A stretch of 64,000 nt of DNA from Candidatus Binatia bacterium (lineage in GTDB: Bacteria > Desulfobacterota > Binatia > UBA12015): NCBI GenBank assembly GCA_029243485.1, contig JAQWRY010000062.1, positions 62,001-126,000 of the forward strand, read 5' to 3'. Below are positions 1 through 43,682 of the stretch, piece by piece. Under the pieces are notes generated by a model. The model was not told the origin of the DNA. It did no database searches and saw only the letters and a program-made list of their open reading frames with translations. Both the position numbers and the translations under genes were made by a program. The first letter of the stretch is position 1. Each line of letters opens with the position of its first letter.

Positions 1-665
1 GGGCTTGGAGCACCGGAGTTCTCGAACAAGGCGGCGAGGCCGCCGAGGGTGAAACGAACGAGGCCGTCGAGGAGACGTTCACGCTCTCGGGCCCGCTGGT
101 CCCCACTCAGACCGAGAAAGTGCACGATCGCCCCGAAGGTCATCGACTGGACAAGCTCGGCGGCAAGCTCGAGATCCGCATCGGGGACCTCTCGATCGCC
201 AAGGATCGTGCGGTAGTCCACGACGAGGCCCTCGATCCAGCGGCGGCGACCTTCCCGCAAGAAGCGCCGAACGCGCGCGTCTTCGCTCTCACGCTCGCGG
301 AGCATGATGTGGAACAAGTCCGCGTTCTTCTCGGCAATCGCGAAAACCGTCTCAAAGGAGTGCCGCGCGATCTGCTCAGCCGAGGCGCCTTTCCGCGGTT
401 GGTTCGCGTCGTGCACCATCTGTCGGAAGGTCGTGCCGTGCTCGCTCAGAATCGCGAGGAACAGGTCCGTCTTGTCCTTGAACTGGTGGTAGAACGAGCC
501 GACCGAGACACGAGCGGGACCGAGGACATCCTCCTTCAGATTAGTCGCGGCGTGGCCCCGGCGACCGAAGGCGCGCCGGCCGCAGTCCAGCAGTCGCTGA
601 CGCGTCCTCTCCCGGGAGGCGGCACGCGTCCGGCGCGGCTCCAGGCCTGGGGCTCCGGCGGGCAT
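1..665 (-). CDS. TetR/AcrR family regulator, 3' end off the left edge
   Basis: The minus strand is open from an ATG at 665 to the window edge without a stop, 221 codons. The N-terminus carries the TetR helix-turn-helix (an RLLDCGRRAFGRRG helix, then a recognition segment ending SVGSFYHQFKDKTDLF), followed by an all-helical ligand domain typical of the family. The first turn of the DNA-binding domain is slightly unusual (LKEDVLGPARV where most relatives have an I/V-A-x-x-A-G-V pattern). It is divergent from the thioesterase gene at 746, with an 18-bp palindrome at 670-687 between them, so it probably represses itself and that neighbour. The ligand is unknown. The few C-terminal residues are missing only because the window ends. 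Confidence 0.85.
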   Translation of the reverse strand, partial: MPAGAPGLEPRRTRAASRERTRQRLLDCGRRAFGRRGHAATNLKEDVLGPARVSVGSFYHQFKDKTDLFLAILSEHGTTFRQMVHDANQPRKGASAEQIARHSFETVFAIAEKNADLFHIMLRERESEDARVRRFLREGRRRWIEGLVVDYRTILGDREVPDADLELAAELVQSMTFGAIVHFLGLSGDQRARERERLLDGLVRFTLGGLAALFENSGAPS

Positions 666-669
666 AATC

Positions 670-687
670 CTAGAATATCGCTTCTAG
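670..687. promoter_or_regulatory. Palindromic operator in TetR/thioesterase divergent region
   Basis: CTAGAA-N6-TTCTAG is a perfect 6-bp-arm inverted repeat lying 5 bases upstream of the TetR start codon and about 60 bases upstream of the thioesterase start. Size, symmetry and position fit a TetR operator; binding itself is inferred. Confidence 0.6.
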
Positions 688-745
688 AACTGGCCGTCTA
701 GGTTGCTTGCTCGGCCAGAGAGCCACTTGTTACCCTTTTTGGTCG

Positions 746-1597
746 ATGAGCGACTCCGTCTACACAGTCGAAGGGAACGTCTACAGCCCGACGAAGTGGG
801 CCGGGAGCCCTTGGTCCACGTCGATGCAGCACGGCGGCCCGGTGAACGGTCTGTTCGCCCGCGAGTTCGAGCGGGTGGCCGGCGAGATCGGAATGCAGAT
901 CGGCCGCATCACGATCGACCTCTTCAAGGCGGTTCCGATGGATCCGCTCGTGGCCGAGACCCGCTTGCTGCGCCAGGGCAAGCGAGTCGCCGCAGTCGAA
1001 ACGACGCTCCATCCGACCGACGACAGCACCCTCGTCTCCCGGGCCACCGGCCTTCTGCTGCGTGCCGCCCCCCACGACGGCCGCCACTGGGAAACGCCGG
1101 AGTGCGCGCCTCCCCCACCGGAGAGCACCTCACCGGCAACGCACCCGGGCGACAGCAAGATCCCGTTCAAGATGCCTCCCGGGTTCCACGAGCACCTGGA
1201 GAGCCACGCGGGCCTCGACGAGGCCGGCCCCTTCGTGTGGATGACCACACCACTGGATCTCGTCACCGGGGAGACCATCTCGCCGCTGCAGCGCGCGACC
1301 GCCCTAACCGACATGACGCTCGGCACGCAGATGCGCATGACGGTGCGTGGCCGCGCCGCCGCAAAACCGGGCGAGACGCCGCCTCCGGCCGGGGCCTTGA
1401 TGATCAACACCGACACCACCGTGTACTGGGAACGCCCGTTCGTCGGCGACGATCTCGGCCTGCGGCCGTCGTTGATCACCGAGAGCGACGGCATCGGAAC
1501 CGCGGAAGCGATCCTCTACGACGCGAACGGTCGCGTCGGGCGCTCTTTGCAGACAGCCCTCGTGCAGCGCGCCTTCAAACGCCAACCGAAGGCCTGA
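746..1597 (+). CDS. Acyl-CoA thioesterase-like (double hotdog) protein
   Basis: A 283-residue protein of the thioesterase-like superfamily (TesB/4HBT_3 type). Two hotdog-like halves are visible: the first has the segment SMQHGGPVNGLFAREFER, where HGG-x-x-x-x-L begins the long hotdog helix, and the second, after a proline-rich linker near residues 120-140, contains LTDMTLG and the strand INTDTTVYWERPF. The family hydrolyses or binds acyl-CoA thioesters in the cytoplasm. I chose the ATG at 746 because the protein aligns with the family from there; an in-frame start at 707 would add 13 residues with no family character. It is divergent from a TetR gene and probably under its control. The substrate cannot be told from sequence. 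Confidence 0.75.
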   Translation: MSDSVYTVEGNVYSPTKWAGSPWSTSMQHGGPVNGLFAREFERVAGEIGMQIGRITIDLFKAVPMDPLVAETRLLRQGKRVAAVETTLHPTDDSTLVSRATGLLLRAAPHDGRHWETPECAPPPPESTSPATHPGDSKIPFKMPPGFHEHLESHAGLDEAGPFVWMTTPLDLVTGETISPLQRATALTDMTLGTQMRMTVRGRAAAKPGETPPPAGALMINTDTTVYWERPFVGDDLGLRPSLITESDGIGTAEAILYDANGRVGRSLQTALVQRAFKRQPKA

Positions 1598-1676
1598 ACC
1601 GCAGAGTCGGCCCAGTAGCCGCTGCGCTTGTCTTGCTTGACCCCGCGGACGGCGCTGCCATAGGTGCACCTCGTGA

Positions 1677-2240
1677 GCGAGCGCACATCCACGGATCCGA
1701 AGCCCGCTCTACTTCCGGCCGGGCGTCCCGACCGCAACCTGGGAGGCCTTTTCCCCGGCCGACTTCGGATGGCGGCCCGCGAGCCTCTCCGCGCTCTTCG
1801 AGTGGTGCGAGAGTCACGCCTCGCAGCAGCTCTTGATTCTGCAAGACGGCCGCCTACTCGCTGAAGCCGACTGGAACGGCGCCGACGCCTCGGTGAGTCT
1901 CGGCATCGCCTCGATGCCGAAGTGCGTCGTCGCGAAAGCGGGCGTCATCCAACTCGCCCGACAGATCGCCGTCAACTACGCCAGCCAAGGCATCCGCACA
2001 AACGCGATTCAGCCGGCCGGGATACAAGACAACAACCTCTCCCCGCACGTCGGCGAAGACCGCGAGCATCAGACCACGCCCCTCGCGAAGCTCCCGCGGC
2101 CGAAGCCTTCGCTTCCCATCCGTAGGCAGGGCCACGCGCGTGATGAATACGGCGCCCCCGTCGCTTTCCTTCTCTTAGAAGACGCCGGATACATCACCGG
2201 CGCCTCCCTCCCCGTCGACGACGGCTACCTAGCGACCTGA
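1677..2240 (+). pseudogene. Chimeric remnant: serine hydrolase N-end fused to SDR C-end
   Basis: An open frame of 187 codons joins two unrelated families. Codons from 1710 to about 1878 (YFRPGVPTATWEAFSPADF, FGWRPASLSALFEWCE, LLILQDGRLLAEADWNG) match the start of class C beta-lactamase-type serine hydrolases, and stop before their SxxK nucleophile motif. From about 1880 the frame continues as the C-terminal third of a short-chain dehydrogenase (VVAKAGVIQLARQIAVNYAS, IRTNAIQPAGI, PVAFLLLEDAGYITGASLP). The SDR YxxxK tyrosine is Cys here, and the Rossmann nucleotide site is absent. A TGA at 1674 precedes the frame. Neither enzyme can be functional. The stop overlaps the next ORF start (TGATG at 2238-2242). 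Confidence 0.7.
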
Positions 2241-3297
2241 TGCCGGACATGTCGACCGACCGGACTAAGGTTCAATTCGGCATCAAGGCCGCGTACGGCA
2301 CCGGCGCGGTCGCAGACGGAGTGAAGAACGCCGTCTTCAACAGCTTCCTGCTGTTCTACTATACGGGCGTCCTCGGCCTCCCGGGATCGCTCGCGGGACC
2401 CTCCCTGTTTCTGGCGATGTGTTTCGACGCCGTATCCGACCTGCTCGTCGGCTATCTGTCCGACCACACGCATTCGAAGCTCGGACGGCGGCATCCTTAC
2501 ATGTACGCCGCCGCGATCCCGATGGGGATCTCGATCTACTTTCTGCTTTGGACGCGGGTATGGCCTGTACCATTGCCACCTTTGTGGCCGCGGCGGGCAC
2601 GCGCCGACTCATCCCGACGCTTCGCGGACCCGAACCGGTTCCTATCGGGTTCAGCGCGTTCGTCAGCGAGGTCCGAAACGTCTTCTCCAACCGGTCGTTC
2701 CGAATGTTGATGACCGGCGGCATCATCATCTCCGCCACAGCGAACTTCCAAGAGGTTTTCGGGCTCTACATGAGCACCTACTTCTGGGAGTTCAAGGACG
2801 GCGACATCGCTCGGCTCTCGCTGCTGCTCGGGCTCGCGACGTTCCTACTCTTCTGGGGGTCGCTCGCGATCGTGCCGGTGACTGGCCTCGGGATCCTGCT
2901 GTCGTCGATGTTCAAGGGCATCATCGATGAAAACGAACTGAAGACGGGGCTTCACTAAGAAGGTCTCTTCGGTGCCGCGATCGCCTTCATGCTGAAGTCG
3001 GTCGCCGGCGTAGGGAATCTGATGGGTGGGATGGCGATCGAGTGGATCGCCTTTCCGACGCAGGCCGCGGCGGGAACAGTGCCTGCCGACAAAGTGTTCT
3101 GGCTGGACATCGCGGCCTGCCCCGGCCTCATGATCTTCTATGTGACCGGGTTCTGGTTCCTGAGCCAGTACTCGATCTCACGCGGGCGCTACGCGGAGAT
3201 CCGAGCGGCGCTGGATGACCGTCAAAAAACCACGACTAAAGATCTGGCCGAGATTAACGAACGTCCCCACCTGGATCCCCACCTGAATCGAAGGTGA
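2240..3297 (+). pseudogene. Decayed GPH/melibiose-type MFS transporter (MFS_2)
   Basis: Remnant of a sodium/sugar or galactoside-pentoside-hexuronide type transporter. It begins well at 2240 (FGIKAAYGTGAVADGVKNA, then FDAVSDLLVGYLSDHTHSKL and GRRHPYMYAAAIPMGISIYF, the classical TM1-TM3 region). Near 2560 the frame changes and the middle of the protein is deleted: the next recognisable piece is the TM6-end/loop FVAAAGTRRLIPTLRGP in another frame. Further segments are missing before VPVTGLGILLSSMFKGIIDE. A TAA at 2956-2958 then interrupts an otherwise continuous frame (KTGLH stop EGLFGAAIAFMLKSVAG). Twelve membrane spans would need roughly 450 residues; only about 350 codons remain. The 3' end overlaps the convergent P450 gene by 44 bases. 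Confidence 0.75.
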
Positions 3298-4459
3298 TGG
3301 GCATGGAGGCGAAGCCGCGGACGTTGGTGTTGTGGACGCGGACCAGGCTGGAGTCGTCGACTTGGTAGTTGGGGAAAAACTCTAGGGCGGTTTCGAGACC
3401 GATCAGGCCTTCGAGGCGGGCCAGGCGGGCGCCGAGACAGAAGTGGACGCCCTTCCCGAACGAGACGAATTCGGTGCAGTCCCGTGTGAGGTCGAAGCGG
3501 TCGGGGTCTTCGAAGACGGCGGGGTCTCGGTTCGCGGCGCCGACGAGGAGCAGGACACGGCCGCCTTCGCAGATGGTCTCGCCGTGTAGTTCAACGTCCC
3601 GGGTGGCGACGCGACCGAGTATCTGACTCGAATTGTCGAAGCGTAGCGTCTCTTCAATCCACTGGGGGATTCGGCTGCGGTCGGCTTCGACAAGGCGGCG
3701 CTGTTCGGGGTTCTTCGCCAGCCAATAGACGGCGTTGGCCAGTAGCTTGGTCGTCGTCTCGTTGCCGGCAATCGTCATGAGGAACAGAAAGCTGATAACC
3801 TGTTCGTCGGTGAGACGTTCGCCATCGACGGTGGCGGTAAGGAGCGCATCGACGAGACCGTCTCCGGTCGAGCGACGGCGGGCCTTCACGAAATCGACGT
3901 AGTACGTGATAAGCTCGAGCGACGCGGCCGCCGATTCATTGGGGATCTCTCGTGTTCCGTCCGCACGATGCATGACCAGGTCGGCCTGCGCCCGGAGTTC
4001 GTCGCGATCCCCCTCGGGCACGCCCAGCATCTCGGAGATAACGTCCATCGGGAGCTTTCCCGCAAAATCGCCGACGTAATCGCACTCCCCGCCCTCGACC
4101 GCACGGGCCGCATGGCTCCTGGCGATCTTACGGATCCGCTGCTCGAGCTCGTCGACGCGACGACCGGTGAACGCTTTCGACACGAGCCCGCGGAACTTCT
4201 GCTGCCGCGGCGGGTCCATCCCCAGAATGAACAGGGCCGACTCCGCGTTGTCGGTCACCTGCTCGAGCGCGACGCCCTTGCTGTTGGAGAAGAGGTCCGA
4301 ATCCTTGAAGCCGGCGAGCACGTCGGCGTGACGCGACAACGCCCAGAACTCGAGTTCCGAGTTGTGGTAGCACGGCGCCTCTTCGCGCAGGCGCTTGTAC
4401 GTCGGGTACGGATCTTCGTGGAAGTCGTAATCGAACGGATCGAAGTGGACCATGGACAT
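3254..4459 (-). CDS. Cytochrome P450
   Basis: A 401-residue soluble bacterial P450. The oxygen-binding I-helix motif AGNETTT is at residues 231-237, the K-helix ExxR (EETLR) at 270-273, and the heme loop FGKGVHFCLG at 334-343 with Cys341 as thiolate ligand. N-terminal PFDYDFHEDPYPTYKRLREE is typical of class I bacterial P450s that take electrons from a ferredoxin; no ferredoxin or reductase is adjacent. A good Shine-Dalgarno (TTAGGAG) precedes the ATG. It lies 13 bases after the amidohydrolase stop in the same direction, so the TetR-amidohydrolase-P450 trio is one transcript. Substrate unknown; the company of an amidohydrolase suggests oxidative catabolism of a small organic acid or terpenoid. 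Confidence 0.93.
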   Translation of the reverse strand: MSMVHFDPFDYDFHEDPYPTYKRLREEAPCYHNSELEFWALSRHADVLAGFKDSDLFSNSKGVALEQVTDNAESALFILGMDPPRQQKFRGLVSKAFTGRRVDELEQRIRKIARSHAARAVEGGECDYVGDFAGKLPMDVISEMLGVPEGDRDELRAQADLVMHRADGTREIPNESAAASLELITYYVDFVKARRRSTGDGLVDALLTATVDGERLTDEQVISFLFLMTIAGNETTTKLLANAVYWLAKNPEQRRLVEADRSRIPQWIEETLRFDNSSQILGRVATRDVELHGETICEGGRVLLLVGAANRDPAVFEDPDRFDLTRDCTEFVSFGKGVHFCLGARLARLEGLIGLETALEFFPNYQVDDSSLVRVHNTNVRGFASMPITFDSGGDPGGDVR

Positions 4460-4472
4460 GCGGATCTCCTAA

Positions 4473-5663
4473 TCAGGCGACCAGAGCCGCGAAGTTCCCG
4501 CGCATGATCTGATCCTTCTCGGGCGCGTTCATGCCCTCGAGCTCTTCTTCGAACTCAACGGGCCACAAGAGCCCTTCGGGATGTGGGTAGTCCGATCCGT
4601 TCAGCACCTGCGTCGTGCCGATGCGCCGGGCCAGCTTTCGCACATCGTCCTCGAAGAACGGCGCGACCCAGACGTTCTTCGCGAACAGCTCACTCGGCGT
4701 GGCCGACGGCTGCCCGAAGCGCCACATATCCTTGCTGAACAACCTGCCGAGGTGGTCGAGTTTCGTGACGAGCGGGTCCACCCAGGACGAGCCGTACTCC
4801 ACGCTCAGGACCTTCAGGTTCGGGAAGCGTCCGAACACATTGTCGGAGATCAACGCCGTCAGCGTGTCCGCGACCGGGCGCTCGGTGAATGACAGGACGT
4901 ACTCCATCATCGAATGCCGGTGCGACGGGGGATGCGCGCGAAGCCCCCAGGCCGTGTTGTACATCTCACTGAACGGCGTCCGGCCGATGTGAAACACCAC
5001 ATTGAATCCGGCTTCCTCGCAGCGTGCCCAAAACGGATCGAAATACGGATCGCCGGGCGAGCGACCGTCGATCGGCCCGGCAGTCAGAACCCCGAAGCGT
5101 GCCCCGGCCTCCAGCACCCGGTCGAGCTCGCGCACCCCCTTCTCCAGGTCCACCAGCGACAAGAGCGGCGCACCGTAGATCCGCCCGTCCGCGCCGTAGC
5201 CCCAGTCCTCCGCGAGCCAGCGATTGAACGCGCGCACCGACGGATACAGAATCTCTCGGTGCTGCGACTCGCGCAGCTGCGGCTCAATGCCCACGCCGGT
5301 CGTCGGCAGCATGAGGCACGCATTCACCTTCTGCTCGTCCATCTTGGCGAGGCGAGCCTCGCGGTCCACGAACTCCGCGACGGCGAGCCCGTCGATCGGG
5401 TTGAGGCTCGGACTCCCACCTTCATCCGACCTGCCGCGGAGAAACTCCTTCATGACACCCGGTGCGCCGACGCTGTCTGCGGCACCGACGCTGAAGAACT
5501 GACAACGCTCCTCGCCGATATGCATTCGACCCGGCCCGGCTTTCGTCCGATCAATCCACATCGTGCGCTTCTTGAAACGCGCTTCGATATGACGCGAGAA
5601 GCAGTCGTCCGGTTCGTAATAGTGGTTGTCCGCGTCGTTGATCCAATCGGTTCGGTCGGTCAT
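4473..5663 (-). CDS. Amidohydrolase_2 family metal-dependent hydrolase
   Basis: A 396-residue TIM-barrel protein of the amidohydrolase-related family (the ACMS-decarboxylase/Amidohydro_2 type). Visible signatures are the N-terminal INDADNHYYEPDDCF (the metal-site xDxHxxE/D pattern with His changed to a DADNHYYE arrangement), FNVVFHIGRTPF mid-protein, and the C-terminal VLNGSDYPHPEG with the conserved Asp. Members hydrolyse or decarboxylate cyclic acids; the exact reaction is not deducible. The ATG at 5663 overlaps the TetR stop (ATGACATGA arrangement, 4 bases), which decides the start over a much longer upstream frame antisense to nothing useful. It is translationally coupled to the regulator and followed closely by the P450. 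Confidence 0.82.
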   Translation of the reverse strand: MTDRTDWINDADNHYYEPDDCFSRHIEARFKKRTMWIDRTKAGPGRMHIGEERCQFFSVGAADSVGAPGVMKEFLRGRSDEGGSPSLNPIDGLAVAEFVDREARLAKMDEQKVNACLMLPTTGVGIEPQLRESQHREILYPSVRAFNRWLAEDWGYGADGRIYGAPLLSLVDLEKGVRELDRVLEAGARFGVLTAGPIDGRSPGDPYFDPFWARCEEAGFNVVFHIGRTPFSEMYNTAWGLRAHPPSHRHSMMEYVLSFTERPVADTLTALISDNVFGRFPNLKVLSVEYGSSWVDPLVTKLDHLGRLFSKDMWRFGQPSATPSELFAKNVWVAPFFEDDVRKLARRIGTTQVLNGSDYPHPEGLLWPVEFEEELEGMNAPEKDQIMRGNFAALVA

Positions 5664-6394: not shown

Positions 6395-6799
6395 TCAGGC
6401 CTCCGCGGCGGGTGGCGTGCCCTCGACGACCACAAAGGCGAGCGCCAAACCCGCGGCGTGCGTGAGCGAGAGCGCGAAACGTTCCATGCCGAGACGCTTC
6501 GCCGTCTCGGCGGCGGCGCCGTGTAGAACGATCTTCGGCGCCTCTCCCCGAGCCCGCGTGACTTCGATGTCGAGCCAACCGGCGTGACGCCCCCAGCCGA
6601 CTCCCAGCGCCTTCATCGTCGCCTCTTTCGACGCGAACCGCGCCGCGTAGCTCTGCCCCCGCCCCTTGCGACGCCCCTCGCAGTACTTCTGCTCGCCGGA
6701 CGTGAACACTCGATTGCGGAGACGCTCGCCGTGCTTCGCATCGAGCGCTCGCTCTATCCGATCGATCTCCGCGATGTCCACACCGTTTCCGAGAATCAT
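6395..6799 (-). CDS. acpS: Holo-[acyl-carrier-protein] synthase
   Basis: A 134-residue AcpS, the usual length. It transfers 4'-phosphopantetheine from CoA to the serine of apo-ACP in the cytoplasm. The N-terminal GNGVDIAEIDRIE has the catalytic/metal Asp of the VDI motif, and the second motif FASKEATMKALG has the conserved Glu and Lys. The start is the ATG at 6799 giving MILGNGVDI, which is where family members begin; the open frame extends to 7120 but that part is antisense to the next gene. It lies 10 bases after the radical SAM gene stop and is probably cotranscribed with it. Confidence 0.93.
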   Translation of the reverse strand: MILGNGVDIAEIDRIERALDAKHGERLRNRVFTSGEQKYCEGRRKGRGQSYAARFASKEATMKALGVGWGRHAGWLDIEVTRARGEAPKIVLHGAAAETAKRLGMERFALSLTHAAGLALAFVVVEGTPPAAEA

Positions 6800-6809
6800 G
6801 TTCGTTCTC

Positions 6810-8531
6810 TCAGCAGGCACCACAGGTCTGGCACGTCGCGACATCGCACGGTGGCGTCTCTCGCTCGAGCATGGCTTTGCGCCACTCCGAGAGGAGATAC
6901 CGCTTCTCGACAGAGTGGTCGATGAAGTCCCAGGGCAACACCTCGTCCGGCTCGTACCGGCGATGCACGAACTCGTCGGGCGCGGGACAGTCCCCGAAGC
7001 CACCGTCGCGATTCGCTTGGCGCACGATCGGCCAGAACTTACCTGCCGCGCGATGGACAGCCTCGAGGATTTCGCCGACGCGGCGATCCCCGCGGGACAG
7101 AAGCGTCTGCCAGTACGCATCTCGCGGCGACTCGAGGTCGACCGTCGTCCCCGGGATGCGATCGGTTGCCTGCTTCAGAAGGCGCGCACGCGACTTCACG
7201 ACGGACAGGTTCTCCATCGGCTCCCACTGCAGTGGGGTCCACGGCTTCGGGACAAAGGGATTGATCGAAAGCGTGATGCGCCCCACCCCGCCGGGCAGAT
7301 GCGCGCGGATCTTCTCGGCCAAACGCGCGATCGCCAGCACATCGTCGTCGGTTTCCGTCGGAAGGCCGATCATCGAGTACAGCTTGAGGGCCCGCACGCC
7401 CTCCGCAGCGAGCAGCCGGGCCGCGCGCAGGATCTCGCTCTCGGTCAGGTTCTTGTTGATCACGCGCCGCATCCGCTCGGATCCGGCCTCGGGAGCCACG
7501 GTAACCGAGTTCGTCTTTCCCCGCGTCAGCGCCTCGGCGAGTTCTGGGCCGACGAGGTCGGCCTTGAGCGAAGACGGCGAGGCACGACCGCCACGATCGG
7601 CGACCTCGCGACAGAGCCCGGCGATGCCTGGATGACTCGCCATCTCCGCGCCGACGAGTCCGACAGTCGACCGGTGTGGCAACGCGTCCTCGACGACCGC
7701 CTTGCGCAGCGACTCGGTACTGCGATGACGTACCGGCCGATACATGTAGCCAGCCGCGCAGAACCGACAGCCCCATTCGCACCCGCGGCTCGCCTCGATG
7801 AGAAACATGTCGCCGAAGACCGCCTCGGGCGCGAGAATGAGCGACTGGGTGGGCGCGTCATCGAGCTGCGCGATGTACCGACGCCGCACGCGCGGCTCAC
7901 CGGTTCGCTGCGCCGGAACGGACGGCCACAGACTCGGCACGTAGGCACCCGAAATTCCTCGGGAAGCTTCGAGCTTCCATTCGCGGTCTCCGCGCTCCGT
8001 ACGAATCGCATCGAGCCATTCGGGAACCATCTCCTCCCCCTCCCCGATGAGGAAGAGGTCGATGAAGTCGGCGAGCGGCTCGGGGTTCAGGAAGACAGCC
8101 GGACCGCCCGCGACCACGAGCGGCTCCCGGCGATTACGCTCCGCTCCGCGAAGCGTAATGCCCGCACTCGCCAGAAGGTCGAGGACATGGACGTAATCCG
8201 TTTCGAACGAAATCGAGAACGCGACCACGTCGAACGCCGACAGAGACCGGCCCGACTCCAACGTTCGAATCGGCTCGTTCGAGCGCGCATCCGGAAGGAA
8301 GGCCCGCTCGACGGCAACGCCGGCGCGCACCAGAATCCCGTAGATCGCCTGGAAGCCCAGATTCGCCATCCCGACGGGGTACGTGTTCGGATAGGCGAGG
8401 CAGACGGACAAGTCGGCCGATGCCGCCGGCAGCGGCCCGAGATGCGTCTCCGCATCGAGCCGTTGCTGAGCCCTATCGCTTTGACGACGTCTCACGCAGG
8501 CAACGGTAGCCCCGCCCCGCAGGTTGAACAA
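6810..8531 (-). CDS. B12-binding-type radical SAM protein (TIGR03960-like)
   Basis: About 573 residues. An N-terminal cobalamin-binding-like Rossmann domain (residues about 40-175, PNTYPVGMANLGFQAIYGIL, FSISFETDYVHVLDLL) is followed by a radical SAM barrel whose cluster motif is C251-x3-C255-x2-C258 (RGCEWGCRFC). The C-terminus has a small Cys cluster (CDVATCQTCGAC). This architecture matches the family usually encoded near cell-shape or ribosome genes; it is half of the larger two-part protein that in some bacteria also carries a DUF2344 domain, absent here. The start is uncertain: ATG 8531 lies right after the ftsZ terminator T-run, so an internal GTG (for example 8495) may be used instead. 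Confidence 0.8.
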   Translation of the reverse strand: MFNLRGGATVACVRRRQSDRAQQRLDAETHLGPLPAASADLSVCLAYPNTYPVGMANLGFQAIYGILVRAGVAVERAFLPDARSNEPIRTLESGRSLSAFDVVAFSISFETDYVHVLDLLASAGITLRGAERNRREPLVVAGGPAVFLNPEPLADFIDLFLIGEGEEMVPEWLDAIRTERGDREWKLEASRGISGAYVPSLWPSVPAQRTGEPRVRRRYIAQLDDAPTQSLILAPEAVFGDMFLIEASRGCEWGCRFCAAGYMYRPVRHRSTESLRKAVVEDALPHRSTVGLVGAEMASHPGIAGLCREVADRGGRASPSSLKADLVGPELAEALTRGKTNSVTVAPEAGSERMRRVINKNLTESEILRAARLLAAEGVRALKLYSMIGLPTETDDDVLAIARLAEKIRAHLPGGVGRITLSINPFVPKPWTPLQWEPMENLSVVKSRARLLKQATDRIPGTTVDLESPRDAYWQTLLSRGDRRVGEILEAVHRAAGKFWPIVRQANRDGGFGDCPAPDEFVHRRYEPDEVLPWDFIDHSVEKRYLLSEWRKAMLERETPPCDVATCQTCGAC

Positions 8532-34609: not shown

Positions 34610-35347
34610 ATGAGCCGCTGCAACGAGTGTGGCCAGCCGGTGCACCCGCACCAACTCACGTGCGGGTCGTGCGGTGCGTCCTTGCGAGAGGATCGCCCGC
34701 CAGGCGCGGAAGACGATACACTCGAGAAGCCGGACGAGACCGAGGGTTTCGTGCTCAGCGATCCGCTGGACCTGCGAGACGGCGACCGCGTCGCTGCCCC
34801 CCCGCCCACGGCCGAGAAACCGGAGCCCGCTCCGCGCCGCCGTCGCAGGCGGGTCCGGGCGCGCACCCGCGGGCCGGTGTCGTCACCGGCGTTCGTGTCA
34901 CGCGCATGGGCTCTCGTGGTCGACGCGATGATCCTCACTCTCGCCTCGGCCACCCTGCCGACGATCGCCTGGATCGGCATTCGCGCGGCCGAAGCCGTGA
35001 GTGGCACCACCGAGCTGTACGACGATGTGATCACGGAACAACTGACAGCCATCGGCCGGATCGCCCTGGTCGCGAGCTACTTCGTGTTCCTCACCGCCAG
35101 CACCGGCCAAACCGTCGGCAAGGGCCTCATGGACCTCCACGTCGTGCGGGCCGATGGCCAGCCGCCCGATCCCCTTCAGAGCCTCATGCGCTTCGTCGGG
35201 TACCTGTTCTCCGCGCTTCCCCTCGGGTTCGGATTCATCCTCGCGGCCTTCACTCCGAGACGCGCCCTCCACGACTACCTCGCGGGAACCGTAGTCGCCC
35301 GCCCGCGTGACATGCCCAACCCGGAAAGCGGAGATACGCCGACATGA
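34610..35347 (+). CDS. Zinc-ribbon and RDD-domain membrane protein
   Basis: A 245-residue protein. N-terminal zinc ribbon CNECGQPVHPHQLTCGSCGA, a disordered Pro/Arg-rich linker to about residue 90, then an RDD domain with three hydrophobic spans (WALVVDAMILTLASATLPTI, LVASYFVFLTASTGQTVG, LFSALPLGFGFILAAF) and the RDD-type Arg and Asp residues (SRAWALVVDAMI, RRALHDYLAGTVV). RDD proteins are small membrane proteins, some acting as cation antiporters. The start is ATG 34610; the stop overlaps gshB by four bases. Confidence 0.82.
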   Translation: MSRCNECGQPVHPHQLTCGSCGASLREDRPPGAEDDTLEKPDETEGFVLSDPLDLRDGDRVAAPPPTAEKPEPAPRRRRRRVRARTRGPVSSPAFVSRAWALVVDAMILTLASATLPTIAWIGIRAAEAVSGTTELYDDVITEQLTAIGRIALVASYFVFLTASTGQTVGKGLMDLHVVRADGQPPDPLQSLMRFVGYLFSALPLGFGFILAAFTPRRALHDYLAGTVVARPRDMPNPESGDTPT

Positions 35348-36306
35348 GCAGCCCCAAGCTTCGCATCGGTTTCGTGATGGACCCGCTGGACGGGATCGAC
35401 ACCGAAAGGGACACGACGTTCGTCTTCCTCGAGGAGGCCGGCGCCCGAAACCACGAGTGCCTGTACATCCGCCCAGAGAGCCTCTCGATTCGCAACGGCA
35501 CGCCCGAGGCGAAGGTGCGCGAGGTGTCGGTGCGTCGCAAGGTCGGCGATCACTTCACGCTCGGTGAAGAACGACCCGCCGCTCTCGAAGAGCTCGACGT
35601 GGTGCTCCTCCGTAAGGACCCGCCCTTCGACATGGAGTTCTTCTTCGACACGCACGTCGCGTCGATGGCGGACTCCGGCAAGGTGCTCGTGCTCAACGAC
35701 CCGCGCGGCCTGCGCGACGCAAACGAGAAGCTCTACGCCCTGCACTTCCCCGACGTGATCCCCGAGAACCTCGTCAGCGCCGACATGGAATTGCTGAAGG
35801 AGTTCCTGGTCGACCTCGGCGGCGAGATGATCGTAAAGCCTCTCGATGGCTGCGGCGGCACGGGCATCTTCCACGTGAAGTCCGGCGACCGGAACGTGAA
35901 CGCGATCCTCGAGGCGTCCACCGACACCGGACGAACCCGCGTCATGGCACAGCGTTACCTCCCCGAGGTGCGCCAGGGCGACAAACGCATCATCCTCATC
36001 GACGGCGAGCCGCTGGGCGGCGTACTGCGGGTCCCGGGCGAAGCGGAAACCCGCTCCAACTTCCACGTCGGCGGCTCGGCCGCAAAGTCCCCCCTCACCG
36101 AGCGCGACCGCGAAATCTGCGCCGCGGTGGCCCCGAAGCTGAAGGAGGACGGCCTCGTGTTCGTAGGCCTCGACGTGATCGGCGATTACCTGACCGAGGT
36201 GAACGTCACGAGCCCGACCGGCGTCCAGGAGATCAACGCCCTCGACGGCGTGAAGCTCGAGGCCAACATGCTCGACTGGATCGAGCGCCACGCCCCGGGC
36301 CGGTGA
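35344..36306 (+). CDS. gshB: Glutathione synthetase
   Basis: A 320-residue ATP-grasp ligase joining gamma-Glu-Cys and Gly. Conserved blocks: FVMDPLDGIDTERDTTFVFL, LLRKDPPFDMEFFF, EMIVKPLDGCGGTGIFHV (ATP-binding), RSNFHVGGSAAKSPLTERD, and VNVTSPTGVQEINALDG. The genomic partner gshA is not in the window. ATG overlaps the RDD gene stop. Confidence 0.95.
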   Translation: MSSPKLRIGFVMDPLDGIDTERDTTFVFLEEAGARNHECLYIRPESLSIRNGTPEAKVREVSVRRKVGDHFTLGEERPAALEELDVVLLRKDPPFDMEFFFDTHVASMADSGKVLVLNDPRGLRDANEKLYALHFPDVIPENLVSADMELLKEFLVDLGGEMIVKPLDGCGGTGIFHVKSGDRNVNAILEASTDTGRTRVMAQRYLPEVRQGDKRIILIDGEPLGGVLRVPGEAETRSNFHVGGSAAKSPLTERDREICAAVAPKLKEDGLVFVGLDVIGDYLTEVNVTSPTGVQEINALDGVKLEANMLDWIERHAPGR

Positions 36307-36383
36307 ATCACGCGAGAAACACTAAGCGTTGACTCAACGGAACCCGCCCGTTATCTCGACTTCTTCGATCGTCTTGGGCACCT

Positions 36384-36456
36384 GGCCAGGTAGCTCAGTT
36401 GGTAGAGCAGCAGACTGAAAATTTGCGTGTCCCTGGTTCAAATCCAGGTCTGGCCA
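36384..36456 (+). tRNA. tRNA-Phe (GAA)
   Basis: A 73-base cloverleaf: acceptor GGCCAGG/TCTGGCC with A73, D-arm GCTC/GAGC, anticodon arm GCAGA-CTGAAAA-TTTGC, T-arm CCTGG-TTCAAAT-CCAGG. Anticodon GAA. CCA not encoded; a T6 run follows at once and may serve as terminator. Confidence 0.95.
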
Positions 36457-36484
36457 TTTTTTACTTCCCCCGGGACGGCAGCCC

Positions 36485-36697
36485 CTAGAAAAGTCGCCGG
36501 GCCAGCGCCGACATCAGATCGGTCGCCAATTTCGACTGCACCTGCTCCGAGCCCCGGCCCTGCGTCCTGATGTTCTTGACTGCCTCGGACATGGACATGC
36601 CCAGACGCACAACCCGATCCGGAGTCACGTACACCACGGACCCCGACCAAGGGTTGGGCGCTCCCGGAAGGTAGACCACGACGGCCCCCTTCTCCGT
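36485..36697 (-). pseudogene. C-terminal fragment of a DUF502 membrane protein
   Basis: The frame after the preceding stop reads TEKGAVVVYLPGAPNPWSGS, VVYVTPDRVVRLGMSMSEAV, which is the conserved end of DUF502 proteins (F-L/V-P-x-x-P-N-P-x-S-G ... D-M-S-x-E-x-A). The whole N-terminal part with the two membrane spans is missing. It directly follows, in the same frame, a TPR fragment of another family. Confidence 0.65.
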
Positions 36698-36892
36698 TCA
36701 GTCCACCTCGTACATGTGCTGAGGATCGTGATCGACGAACGTCATCACGTGTTCGCAATGCTCCCGCGCCCGGCCCAGGTTGCCGAGGAAGAGCTCTCGG
36801 TCCGCGAGCATACAAAACACGCCGGCTTCGATGCGACTGTCGCCAATCCGCCGAGCGACGACGAGACCCTCGTTCAGGAGCTCGTGCTCGCG
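36698..36892 (-). pseudogene. TPR fragment of a cyclase-ATPase-type protein
   Basis: The piece REHELLNEGLVVARRIGDS, GVFCMLADRELFLGNLGRAR, TFVDHDPQHMYEVD resembles the TPR repeats found at the end of large class III cyclase/AAA-ATPase proteins, including the DPxHxxxY-type repeat end. It is joined by a frame change to the cyclase remnant upstream and ends at a TGA. Could derive from the same original gene with its ATPase middle deleted. Confidence 0.55.
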
Positions 36893-37189
36893 CCGCACGG
36901 ATCGCATCGTTCTCGGCGACGCGCGGGACTCCGAAGACCGCCTTCACACCGTTGCCTAGGAACTGAGTGACCATGCCACCGTGACTCTGAACCGCCTCGC
37001 GAGCGGCCGCGTAGTAGCTCTCCATGAAGCGGCGAGCCGACTCTGGGTCGAGCCGCTCATGCAGCCCGCTCGACCCGACTAGGCCCGCGAACAGGATCGA
37101 CACGACCTCGCGGGCGCCGATGGACTCGGTCGGAGGGGGCGGCGATGGCGCCCCACAAGGCGGAGCACCTCACTCATTGCAGACCTTCT
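36893..37189 (-). pseudogene. N-terminal fragment of a class III nucleotide cyclase
   Basis: VVSILFAGLVGSSGLHERLD, PESARRFMESYYAAAREAV, GGMVTQFLGNGVKAVFGVPR are unmistakable class III adenylate/guanylate cyclase core segments (the second metal Asp of GDG is Asn here: FLGNGV). Upstream, the zinc-ribbon that usually precedes the domain survives as VCNE-stop-GAPPCGAP, with a TGA where the second Cys of an ECG motif should be. The rest of the catalytic domain is missing. Confidence 0.7.
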
Positions 37190-37387
37190 AGTTCGTCTGC
37201 AGCCCGGCGCACACTGCGTGCAGGAAGGGCAGGTCATCGGCCGATCTCGCGCAGCGGCAGAGCGGCTCGTCCTCCTCTATGGAAGAGTCGCCACCCCGTC
37301 CACCGCGACCCCGAATCATGCCCATAGCCAGGCGTCATCCCGTCCCGACTATGATGCCCCGGCTCCGCGAACTCCACCGGCCGAGGC

Positions 37388-39355
37388 TCAGCCTACGGTG
37401 CTGCACGCCATCGACTCCGGTGCCTTCTCCCCTATCGCATCCCCGATCTTCTCTAGGAGCTTGTCGATCGGGCACGGCTTCTGGATGACACCGGCGAGAC
37501 CGGCGCCACGAAAGCGGTCGACGATCTCCTGCTCCGCGAAGCCGCTCGCCAGAACGACCCGAACGTCGCTGCGGATCTTGCGGAGTTCGTGGAAGACCTC
37601 TTCGCCATCGAGTTTCGGCATACTGAGGTCGAGTAGAACGCAGTCGACCGAATCGGGCTCTCGACGGAAGATGTCGAGCGCCTTCATCCCATCAGACGCC
37701 AGGGTGACGGTGTAGCCCGAACCTTCCAAGATGCTCGCCAGAACCTCGCGCACGCTGGGCTCGTCATCCACGACTAGGATATGCGCGTGGCGCCCACCGG
37801 GAGCCCCCTCGTCCGCCGGCGCGTCCTCCGCCGCGGGCGGGGCCGCGCTCGGCAGGAGAACCTCGAAACTCGTCCCCCGCCCCTCTTCGCTCTCGACACG
37901 GATCGCACCCTTGTGTTGCCGCACGATGCCCTGAACCGCCGAAAGACCGAGGCCACGACCGTTCGCCTTCGTCGAGAAGAATGGATCGAAGACCTTGGCT
38001 CTCGTCGCGGAGTTCATTCCCGAGCCTGTATCGCGCACGACCAGGCAGACGTACTCCCCCGCCACCAGACTCAGGCCCGGGTAACGGAGCTGGAGGTCCC
38101 GCTCCGTGCAGCGCTGGGTTTCCGTGGAGATGACGATCCGCCCGGTGTCGTTTCCCAGCGCCTCCGAGGCATTCGTGATCAGGTTCATGATCACCTGCCG
38201 AAGCTGGCTCCGGTCCGCCATTACGCCCTGGCGCGTCGCGTCCAACTGGTAGACCAGCGTCGCCTTCTTCGACAACGCGACCTGCAGCAAGCCACCGAGC
38301 TCCCTGACCAAGCTGTTGCACTCGAGCGGCTCTCTCGACACCGAACCCCGGCCTGCGTACGCGAGCAACTGACTGCAGAGGTCGGTTGCGCTGACAGTCG
38401 CGCTCGCGATCTCCTTCAGCATCTCCGTGCCCGCCAGTTGCGGCGGGAGCTTCGCCAGGGCCAGCTCTGCGTTGCCTAGAATGACCGCCAGCAAGTTGTT
38501 GAAGTCGTGTGCGATGCCTCCGGCGAGGATGCCGACAGCCTCCATCTTCGCCGCTTGGCTCAGCTGCTCTTCGAGGCGGTCGCGTTCGACGGCGAGACCA
38601 ACCATCCGTGCCGCGATCTCGAGGCCGTCCATCTGCGCCTGCGTCGGCACCCTCGGGGTCACGCTGTACAGGGCCATCGCGCCGAGTACGGTGCCACTGG
38701 CCGCGGTAACGGGCTGCGACCAGCACGCCGAAACCCCGGCGATCGCCGCAGCGCCACGAAGGTCCTTCCACAGGGGGTCTGTTCCGATGTTCTCGACGAC
38801 GACCGGAACGTTCCAGAACGCCGCCGTGCCGCAGGAACCGACCGTGGGACCGATCCGGAGGCCTTCGACCGCGTCGTTGTACGCGGCAGGGAGACTCGGG
38901 CCCGCGCCGACGCTGACGTGTTCCTGGCGGGCATCCACGAGAAGGATGGAACATCGCATGCCGGGGTTCTGCCCCTCGACGATGTGCACCATCGCTTCGA
39001 GAGTCTCGCCGATCGTAGTGCGCGGCTGCACGTCGTCGGGCGACGGCTGGGTGACCGTGTCGGATGCCCGTGCCGGAAGACCGAGGATCGCGACAGAGTC
39101 GGCCTCGGTCCGCACCTCCCAACGAAATGAAATCCATTCACCAGATCTCGTGCGATGCCGGGCAACAGCACAGCCCTCTCCCGCATCGACGGCCGACTTC
39201 AACTGACGGCAGTCGTCTGGGTGGATCCAGTCGAGGAGAGGCTTCCCACCCAGCTCCCCGCTCTCGAACCCGAACTCGTCGGTGAACGTCCGGTTCACCC
39301 GAACCTGCGCGGCAGGACCCTTCACCCTCAAAATCATCGGTGGATTGAACGACAT
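37388..39355 (-). CDS. Hybrid sensor histidine kinase (PAS-GAF-HK-REC)
   Basis: A 655-residue soluble sensor. PAS-like domain (about 1-95), GAF domain (about 115-255, GSCGTAAFWNVPVVVENI), NtrB-type dimerisation helix with phospho-His283 in GGIAHDFNNLLAVILGNAE, ATPase domain with N-box NLITNASEAL (391-400), G1 DTGSGM and G2 GRGLGLSAVQGIV, then a C-terminal receiver with D530/D531 and phospho-acceptor D576 (CVLLDLSMPKLDG). No membrane span. No cognate output gene is adjacent, so the phosphate probably passes to a distant regulator. Confidence 0.92.
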   Translation of the reverse strand: MSFNPPMILRVKGPAAQVRVNRTFTDEFGFESGELGGKPLLDWIHPDDCRQLKSAVDAGEGCAVARHRTRSGEWISFRWEVRTEADSVAILGLPARASDTVTQPSPDDVQPRTTIGETLEAMVHIVEGQNPGMRCSILLVDARQEHVSVGAGPSLPAAYNDAVEGLRIGPTVGSCGTAAFWNVPVVVENIGTDPLWKDLRGAAAIAGVSACWSQPVTAASGTVLGAMALYSVTPRVPTQAQMDGLEIAARMVGLAVERDRLEEQLSQAAKMEAVGILAGGIAHDFNNLLAVILGNAELALAKLPPQLAGTEMLKEIASATVSATDLCSQLLAYAGRGSVSREPLECNSLVRELGGLLQVALSKKATLVYQLDATRQGVMADRSQLRQVIMNLITNASEALGNDTGRIVISTETQRCTERDLQLRYPGLSLVAGEYVCLVVRDTGSGMNSATRAKVFDPFFSTKANGRGLGLSAVQGIVRQHKGAIRVESEEGRGTSFEVLLPSAAPPAAEDAPADEGAPGGRHAHILVVDDEPSVREVLASILEGSGYTVTLASDGMKALDIFRREPDSVDCVLLDLSMPKLDGEEVFHELRKIRSDVRVVLASGFAEQEIVDRFRGAGLAGVIQKPCPIDKLLEKIGDAIGEKAPESMACSTVG

Positions 39356-41451: not shown

Positions 41452-41567
41452 AAAATTCTCCACTCGAACGGGTGGGTACGAATTCCAATGGACTCTCCGT
41501 TGCGCCAACCCTTTCATTCGACGGTGGTGCGCGGCCCCGCAGACCTGTAGACAATCGATTCCTCCCA

Positions 41568-43682
41568 ATGGTGCCCGCACTCTTGCCGCGACTACGGTTC
41601 ACAGGCTCCACCCTTGCCGTGCGAGCCACGCTCATGACGCTCGCATGCGCACTCCTCGCGTCGCAGGCGACCGCAGCCGACGAGCCCGCGGCGCCGATCG
41701 CACCGGCCGCTGCGACGGTGACCTTGGTCGCGAAAGGCAAGACCCCCTGGCACCTGGTGAACCGCTCGAAGGAGTCGACGCCGGTCACCTTCGCCGCGAA
41801 GGAGCTGCGCGACTACATCGAGAAGATATCGGGAGTCAGCATCGGACGGCGCGAGCCTTCGGGCGACGGCCCGGAGATCGTGATCGGCCTGCGAGAGAAC
41901 CTCTCCGCGAACGACACGGCGATGTTGCCGCCCGCCGCGGACGGACACGACGGATACGCGATTACGCTACGAGGCGAGACCGAAGGCGCGCCCGCGCGTA
42001 TCGTCATCGGCGCCGACAACGAGCGGGGCGCGGTCTACGCGGCCTACGACCTGCTCGAACGACTCGGCTGGCGCTGGGTCCACCCAGACCTCGACCCCAG
42101 AGACAGCGAGGTCATTCCTAAGAGCGACATCGTCTCGCTCCCTGCCGAGTCCTGGTCGGTCGCTTCCCCCATGAAGATCCGCACCTTGAATTGGTTCGAG
42201 TGGCGACAGCGCGGCGGAGAGGATCCGAAGACGAGCCCGGAAGCGCTTCGAGCCCAGGTCGATTGGGCGATGAAGTCCCGGTACAACACCTTAGCCTCCT
42301 CTTCATCGGAGTTGGAGCCCGACCACCCTTTCTACATCGCGCTAAAGGCCGCGGACGAGCGCGGCATGATGCGTCAGATCGGCGGGCACAACTTCGCGGT
42401 GTTCTTCCCCAACGACCCGAAGACGTTCGCGGAGCATCCCGAGTGGTTTGGGATGCGCAACGGCGAACGCGTCGGGCACAGCCACTACGGGAATCAATTC
42501 TGCTGGAGCAACGAAGGCGCGCAGAAGCACTTCGTGGACAACATCGATGCCTTCATCCAGGCGCGGCCCGAGATCGACGTACTGCCGCTCTACGGATTGG
42601 ATGACGGCCGATTCTGCGAGTGCCCTGCGTGTTCCGAGGCCTCGCCGACCGACAACATGATCAACCTGATCAACGCCGTCGTGGAGCGACTCGAGGAGAC
42701 CGCGCCCCACGTCACGGTCGAGACACTCGGCGGATACAAGAACAGCTCTGCCCTCCCCAAGACGGCCAAGCCACACGATCGGCTCCGCGTCGAGATCGCC
42801 TTCTGGGGCCGAAACCCCACAACGGGCTACGACGTGCAGCGCTATCTGCACGGAAAGCTCAAGAGCTGGGCTCGGGCCTACGACGGCCGCCTCACCATCT
42901 ACCAGTACTACAGCGATAACTTCGCCGGCCCGTGGATGTCCGCACCATACACCAAGCAAATGCTCGGCGACCGGAAGTTCCTCCTGGGCTTGGGAGCGGA
43001 CGGCTTCATGAACCTGCTCTACCCCGATGGCTTCTGGTGGCGAGAGAGCCTGAACGCCTACCTCGCCGGCCGTTCCTTCTACGACGTTTCAATCGACCCG
43101 AATGAACTACTCGAAGACTACGCCCGCTCGTACTACGGACCCGACGCCGGGCCCCTGATGGCCAAGTACTACGCAGAGTGGGCAGCGAACCCGGTCCTCG
43201 CGAGCCGTAGCCGATCCGGCACCCGGCCCGAGCACCGCAAAATGATCGCCGACCAACGCAGAGACCTCATCGACCCCGCCCTCGCGGCGAGCGCGGACCA
43301 ACCCGTCTACCGCTATCGGGTCGAGAAGGCGGAGAAGCTGCACCGCATGGCCGAAGAAGTGATGGAGCTCCAGCTGATCGCGATGGAGGTCACTGAGTTG
43401 CGCGAGTCGTCCCATCGAGACGCCGCCATCAACCTCCTTGCAACCTCGGACAAGCAACGCGAAGTGGTCCGAGAACTCGCGCGATCCCTGGAGGCGGAAA
43501 ACGCCGGCATCATGCACTTCGACGACTTCGTCCTGCGCGCGACAGTGCGCCTGCGCGACGAAGCGGGGAAGCTCAAGGAATCGCCGAAGGCCAAACCCAA
43601 ACCCGCGCCTAAGCCGAAAAAAGCAGCCGCTCCGCGTTCCCCCGCAGAATCGCGTGACGCACCTCCGGACGCTTCTCCGTAA
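41568..43682 (+). CDS. Secreted DUF4838 glycoside-hydrolase-like protein
   Basis: A 704-residue exported protein. Signal peptide ends at TAA-DEP (ATLMTLACALLASQATAA). Residues about 50-190 form the GH20/GH67-like N-terminal alpha-beta domain (FAAKELRDYIEKISGVSI, GADNERGAVYAAYDLLERLG). The DUF4838 core follows, with LPLYGLDDGRFCECPACSEA and NMINLINAVVERLEE and FWGRNPTTGYDVQRY. Related proteins belong to alpha-glucuronidase/hexosaminidase-like clans. The C-terminal tail after residue 675 is Lys/Pro/Ala-rich and its last 24 codons overlap the convergent amidohydrolase gene by 74 bases. Start at ATG 41568 fits the signal peptide. Confidence 0.82.
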   Translation: MVPALLPRLRFTGSTLAVRATLMTLACALLASQATAADEPAAPIAPAAATVTLVAKGKTPWHLVNRSKESTPVTFAAKELRDYIEKISGVSIGRREPSGDGPEIVIGLRENLSANDTAMLPPAADGHDGYAITLRGETEGAPARIVIGADNERGAVYAAYDLLERLGWRWVHPDLDPRDSEVIPKSDIVSLPAESWSVASPMKIRTLNWFEWRQRGGEDPKTSPEALRAQVDWAMKSRYNTLASSSSELEPDHPFYIALKAADERGMMRQIGGHNFAVFFPNDPKTFAEHPEWFGMRNGERVGHSHYGNQFCWSNEGAQKHFVDNIDAFIQARPEIDVLPLYGLDDGRFCECPACSEASPTDNMINLINAVVERLEETAPHVTVETLGGYKNSSALPKTAKPHDRLRVEIAFWGRNPTTGYDVQRYLHGKLKSWARAYDGRLTIYQYYSDNFAGPWMSAPYTKQMLGDRKFLLGLGADGFMNLLYPDGFWWRESLNAYLAGRSFYDVSIDPNELLEDYARSYYGPDAGPLMAKYYAEWAANPVLASRSRSGTRPEHRKMIADQRRDLIDPALAASADQPVYRYRVEKAEKLHRMAEEVMELQLIAMEVTELRESSHRDAAINLLATSDKQREVVRELARSLEAENAGIMHFDDFVLRATVRLRDEAGKLKESPKAKPKPAPKPKKAAAPRSPAESRDAPPDASP

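Follow-up and report, generated by a model that had tools for sequence, protein, structure and literature searches.

Beside tRNA-Phe in this Candidatus Binatia genome, the minus strand carries a mosaic of three gene pieces that we judge likely to be non-functional debris of three genes, lying 3' of a tRNA that is an attachment site for integrating elements in the genus. The pieces differ in their relatives and abut at sharply defined borders. They are the first part of a class III cyclase, a short helical stretch resembling TPR sequence, and the C-terminal end of a DUF502 membrane protein. The window (the whole stretch of DNA that was analysed, 64,000 nucleotides) is part of a 202-kb contig in a genome of 6.5 Mb in 88 contigs (G000; the relatives compared are likewise given G numbers).

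Layout and borders of the mosaic

The mosaic, which adjoins tRNA-Phe, and its immediate context are arranged as follows.

35344..36306, plus strand: gshB (context; the conserved neighbour of tRNA-Phe)
36383..36457, plus strand: tRNA-Phe, matching relatives to about 36431 and then carrying a different T-arm
36485..36747, minus strand: DUF502 C-terminal piece, with an internal TGA at 36700-36698 and its own stop TAG at 36487-36485
36748..36907, minus strand: TPR-like helical piece of about 51-53 aa, in the frame of the DUF502 piece; origin unproven
36886..37169, minus strand: class III cyclase start and linker, with DNA homology over 36886-37127
37170..37237, minus strand: double zinc ribbon, decayed, with an off-frame ATG and in-frame stops (TAG 37190-37188, TGA 37172-37170)
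37388..39355, minus strand: hybrid histidine kinase gene, open (context; the mosaic's other flank)

The borders were defined by a search of 39 genomes (G000 included), in which all seven cyclase matches longer than 200 bp (from G001, G002, G010, G018, G024, G032 and G038) ended at 36886 and both DUF502 DNA matches began at 36747; the exceptions to the first border were two short matches in the cyclase range, of 64 bp in G005 and 31 bp in G009. The end of the cyclase homology and the upstream end of the TPR-like piece overlap by about 20 bases. An uninterrupted homologue of the whole, the finding that the earlier note had named as fatal to its reading of the region, was seen nowhere in the 39 genomes beyond the window's own locus, and that note's view of a decayed region with three sources, DUF502 being unrelated to the cyclase, was borne out. 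No direct repeats were found at the mosaic; its repeats are five short inverted pairs (13-17 nt, 76-92% complementary).

An assembly error in a metagenome-drafted genome could also join unrelated pieces, and the relatives in the named collection are indeed metagenome assemblies, while the 88-contig genome has multicopy repeats at several contig ends. We give this explanation very little credence, since the internal stops and lost catalytic residues require decay rather than misjoining, and no long repeat lies at the mosaic borders.

A dead cyclase start

The cyclase piece is dead: two stops and a frameshift interrupt it, its domain is truncated, and both presumed metal-binding Asp residues are changed. 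Its identity as a cyclase N-terminus on the minus strand, proposed from the sequence in the earlier note, is confirmed by DNA identity to the cyclase-AAA genes of G001 (79%), G002 (78%) and G018 (76%, a copy cut by its contig end), from 36886 to 37097-37127; the start was placed correctly as to family, but the piece reaches 37237, beyond the 37189 given before. The profile searches proposed at that time gave a mixed answer: Pfam Guanylate_cyc matched the cyclase piece with E=4.8e-4, its 20.2 bits falling slightly short of the 21.9 cut-off (the G001 homologue, L050, scores above it), the middle piece matched no TPR model, and DUF502 was reached by way of a G001 homologue only. NCBIfam returned a weak kinase/cyclase match (14.9 bits against a cut-off of 705.75). 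Plasmid records matching the piece numbered 264, every one below 60% identity, and among the matches listed six of eight fell within annotated adenylate/guanylate cyclase genes.

The L050 frame encodes a double zinc ribbon, cyclase, AAA_16 and SnoaL domains. The window piece resembles this type of cyclase at 86% protein identity over 74 aa; unlike it, the piece keeps only about 70 catalytic-domain residues, is broken by stops and a frameshift, and has substitutions at both presumed metal-site Asp. A search of G000 for the rest of an L050-type gene gave only the mosaic's 242 bp and a 36-bp match inside another cyclase. No complete catalytic domain lies in one open frame: homology stops at 36886, and the ribbon part contains the frameshift and both stops, its start ATG (37237-37235) sitting in a different frame from the cyclase, whose own frame is broken by the TAG and TGA listed above. 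The TGA at 37172-37170 occupies the position of a Cys codon in related genes, just as the earlier reading of a decayed zinc ribbon had it.

At 60 columns three related genes are identical, and the window differs from them at 6; G001 likewise deviates at 6 columns where the two other genes agree, and the count is not unusual by itself. Among the changed columns are two Asp, one in FADLVGST and one in LGDGVKAV (D to G and D to N), both invariant in the three related genes and both Asp in the solved cyclases aligned. We take these two columns to be the catalytic metal-binding residues of the cyclase, and the window piece has neither of the two metal-binding Asp of class III cyclases. Metal-cofactor residues are mentioned in a figure of PMC4626032, and the portion of that article available to us gives no catalytic Asp positions.

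Against G001, dS was 1.06 and dN 0.07 (71 codons). Across the intact copies, dN to the window piece was 0.07-0.15 compared with 0.05-0.10 among the intact copies themselves; the piece evolves no faster than they do, so either its decay is recent or it is too short to tell.

That any open frame here, such as the 221-aa one at 36438-37103 or the 64-aa one at 36485-36679, is a working small protein is scarcely credible. Both are open, and dN/dS between the pieces and their relatives is low, but the 221-aa frame loses cyclase homology after about 72 codons and then runs into tRNA-Phe, with both metal-site Asp gone, and the 64-aa frame covers no more than part of a membrane protein.

The DUF502 end and other DUF502 scraps

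Two DNA matches identify the piece nearest the tRNA: 36519-36747 matches contig C77 of the same genome at 78%, and 36545-36747 matches contig C180 of G001 at 76% over 203 bp. The G001 frame (L052) is 245 aa between stops and passes PF04367 (30.0 bits against a cut-off of 23.8), in agreement with the DUF502 C-terminus read earlier, while the window piece alone gave no DUF502 profile match (UBA_9 only, far below cut-off). The likeness to L052 is confined to its C-terminal end; in contrast to L052, the window piece is without the upstream part and has an internal TGA. G002 carries a 70% relative of the piece.

The piece starts at or before 36747. Since homology runs from that position, the TGA at 36700-36698 lies inside the DUF502 piece, 47 bp past the homology start, and on comparison with these homologues reads as a nonsense codon within it. 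The border between TPR and DUF502 sequence had previously been set at this stop codon; the real border is near 36750.

In the C77 copy everything before residue 140 of the G001 frame is missing, and a third copy, on contig C21 (L166 1482-1601), is a 40-residue upstream scrap corresponding to residues 46-85 at 62.5% identity, so that with the window there are three scraps of this DUF502 type in G000. The C21 scrap shares its reading frame with unrelated sequence to which it is fused. Two further DUF502 genes, less closely related, have open frames.

On C77 (L006), the two copies of a 139-bp direct repeat (4894-5032 and 6579-6715, 91%) enclose a bestrophin-like gene together with the truncated DUF502 piece, and the DUF502 scrap begins 26 bases after one repeat copy. 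The same contig has units of about 88 and 140 bp (4771-4859 and 6768-6908) that occur in many copies in G000 and form a multicopy element: the C77 query had at least 50 matches in the genome (40 of the 210 candidates scored), with at least 7 units at contig ends. A process in the lineage that repeatedly cuts off and relocates gene ends, with the mosaic as its product rather than that of passive decay, is suggested by the three DUF502 scraps, by the 139-bp repeat near the C77 one and by units of that contig recurring genome-wide; we regard such a process as very improbable.

The middle piece

The middle piece may be TPR-like, an assignment that is unproven and draws on sequence comparison and a predicted fold. 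No Pfam family matched it at E<=10, TPR profiles included, although all four slices of similar length (50-52 aa) of a cyclase-AAA-TPR protein, used as a positive control, matched TPR models. Its sole sequence match was to the cyclase-AAA-TPR protein of G015 (L067), with E=0.008 in that genome; arising in one of 38 relatives, this value is not significant across all genomes searched. The alignment lies in the TPR tail of L067 (45% identity over 31 aa). It scored 31.2 bits, and the best of 500 shuffles 29.3, in a post hoc test on 183 frames picked around cyclases with the target chosen after the search; against the TPR tail alone (also post hoc) the score was 69 and the best of 1000 shuffles 57.

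Relatives were otherwise absent: only G000 itself among 297 genomes of the phylum (G000 included), only G000 and G015 among the 39 genomes, none confirmed of 592 pattern matches in the named genomes, and no match in plasmid records.

A single-sequence structure model predicted three helices with a mean pLDDT of 83 in the best of five (79.6, 68.5, 44.3 and 43.0 in the remaining four). Model confidence drops to 76 at residues 51-60 and 49 beyond, and DUF502 homology starts at residue 54. TPR chains were numerous among the structural neighbours, at query TM-scores of about 0.7-0.8 and none at E<=0.001, and the neighbour at rank 1 was a designed heterodimer. The TPR label of the earlier note is thus favoured by the post hoc shuffle test and the predicted helical fold and disfavoured by the lack of a Pfam match; its extent shrinks to about 51-53 aa from the 69 aa that ran up to the stop.

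Two readings would reduce the number of sources. In one, also raised in the earlier note, the cyclase and TPR pieces are the ends of a single cyclase-AAA-TPR gene whose middle was deleted, with the DUF502 scrap as a separate neighbour. G015 has a protein of this build, whose TPR tail matches the middle piece better than any other sequence found, and the order and strand of the two pieces fit one gene; given the G015 architecture the idea is conceivable, and we hold it unlikely. The nearest counterparts of the cyclase piece, the genes of G001 and G002 (protein identity in the piece 86% and 78%), contain nothing like the middle (best E=2.5) although the two are 73% identical in DNA over bases 283-3392 (3.1 kb), so that the claim as first made is unsupported; the G015 match is, over all genomes, no better than chance, and while the tail of L067 resembles the middle piece, its cyclase part is only 42% identical to the window's and the window's middle has no TPR HMM support. 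The G018 gene ends at a contig end and is uninformative here.

In the other, which is rather more doubtful, the middle piece belongs to the DUF502 gene itself, as its upstream part in a more advanced state of decay, leaving two sources. The two share a frame, the tblastn DUF502 alignment extends to 36868 with 9 gap codons (48% over 125 aa, mostly the downstream part), and GLVVARRIG of the middle piece is similar to GLIAARGLG of DUF502. The middle piece alone, however, scores 28 against upstream DUF502, a value reached by 36 of 1000 shuffles (54 of 1000 with the G002 copy). At the DNA level, similarity gives out at 36747: past this border the C77 copy continues with a score of 147, the window with one of 22, which 30 of 300 shuffles reach (4 of 300 in the comparison with the G002 copy). 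The shuffle scores and the ending of DNA similarity at the border led us largely to reject this assignment.

tRNA-Phe as a probable integration site

The pair of gshB followed by tRNA-Phe is conserved, with tRNA-Phe present in 29 of 80 named gshB loci, many of the remaining loci being cut short or from other phyla. The genes that follow the tRNA vary, which bears out the earlier suggestion that this is the place to compare relatives: 3' of tRNA-Phe, G003 has homologues of window 45.4-49.3 kb, and G008 and G012 have homologues of window 59.9-64 kb, about 1 kb or less from the tRNA in those three genomes as against 9 kb and 23 kb in the window.

In G001, a congener, tRNA-Phe is followed by a convergent gene for a tyrosine recombinase (PF00589, E=4.8e-31) whose end lies 110 bp past the tRNA. 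Another contig carries, where a second integrase frame begins (PF00589, E=1e-20), an exact 45-bp duplicate of the tRNA's 3' half that extends from the anticodon loop to beyond the tRNA end; the two integrase proteins are 39% identical. G001 has both an integrase and a displaced tRNA 3' fragment, on two different contigs and not in one contiguous assembled stretch. The signature described for Islander (PMC4383910) combines an integrase with a regenerated tRNA gene and a fragment displaced from it, the crossover falling in the anticodon loop or the T-arm. G001 is like such hot spots in its tyrosine recombinase by the tRNA and its fragment displaced from the anticodon loop, and the relatives are like them in their variable cargo after the tRNA (PMC4383910); the window differs in having neither the integrase kinds tested nor a displaced fragment, only debris and a divergent T-arm (PMC4383910).

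Around the mosaic, no relatives of the two G001 integrases were found within 8 kb, and no displaced tRNA fragment or attachment copy in the window, nor a displaced tRNA half elsewhere in G000; on these counts the window by itself does not present as a genomic island at tRNA-Phe. Among the 29 named loci, which reach between 200 bp and 9.8 kb past the tRNA and were examined for relatives of the two G001 integrases only, one had such an integrase, G001 itself.

The window tRNA-Phe agrees with relatives to about 36431 and then has an unusual T-arm. One common version is shared by six relatives (G001, G002, G004, G006, G009 and G010), and G003 has its own; the window's version occurs in none of the 29 tRNA-Phe genes compared and gave no exact-pattern match in viral records. 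The anticodon block has a single match in G000, and the family's T-arm version none there.

Several further features of these loci were observed. The 3' end of gshB is duplicated beside tRNA-Phe in G003 (L113 8588-12008) and G002 (L074 9980-11984), with a spacing from gshB to the duplicate of about 2.2 kb and 0.8 kb, respectively; the G003 insert between gshB and the duplicate has a frame that is PemK/MazF-like. CAMBZJ010000003.1 (L076), titled as a Klebsiella pneumoniae MAG, has a gshB and tRNA-Phe locus like this group's and is probably a mislabelled bin. Within the window, a DUF4838/GH67-N gene (41472-43682) stands between SGNH-like and amidohydrolase genes whose homologues are about 0.3 kb apart in G001.

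Origin and meaning of the debris

In the explanation we favour, debris of three genes at an integration site, elements carrying or shuffling the cyclase, middle and DUF502 genes would have inserted beside tRNA-Phe, and later deletions with little or no homology may have joined the surviving gene ends. The unusual T-arm could be the scar of one such integration, or it could have changed by ordinary tRNA evolution instead. We infer the integration origin from the place of the debris at tRNA-Phe, because the window is without an attachment copy, direct repeats or relatives of the G001 integrases.

The mosaic is real and its limits are well defined, but it is an ordinary “graveyard” where the scraps of three genes lie at a tRNA used for integration: an odd-looking arrangement is resolved as debris with its borders corrected, and tRNA-Phe is documented as a target of integration in a group whose representatives here are metagenome assemblies. 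Dead scraps at tRNA hot spots can mimic novel fusion genes.
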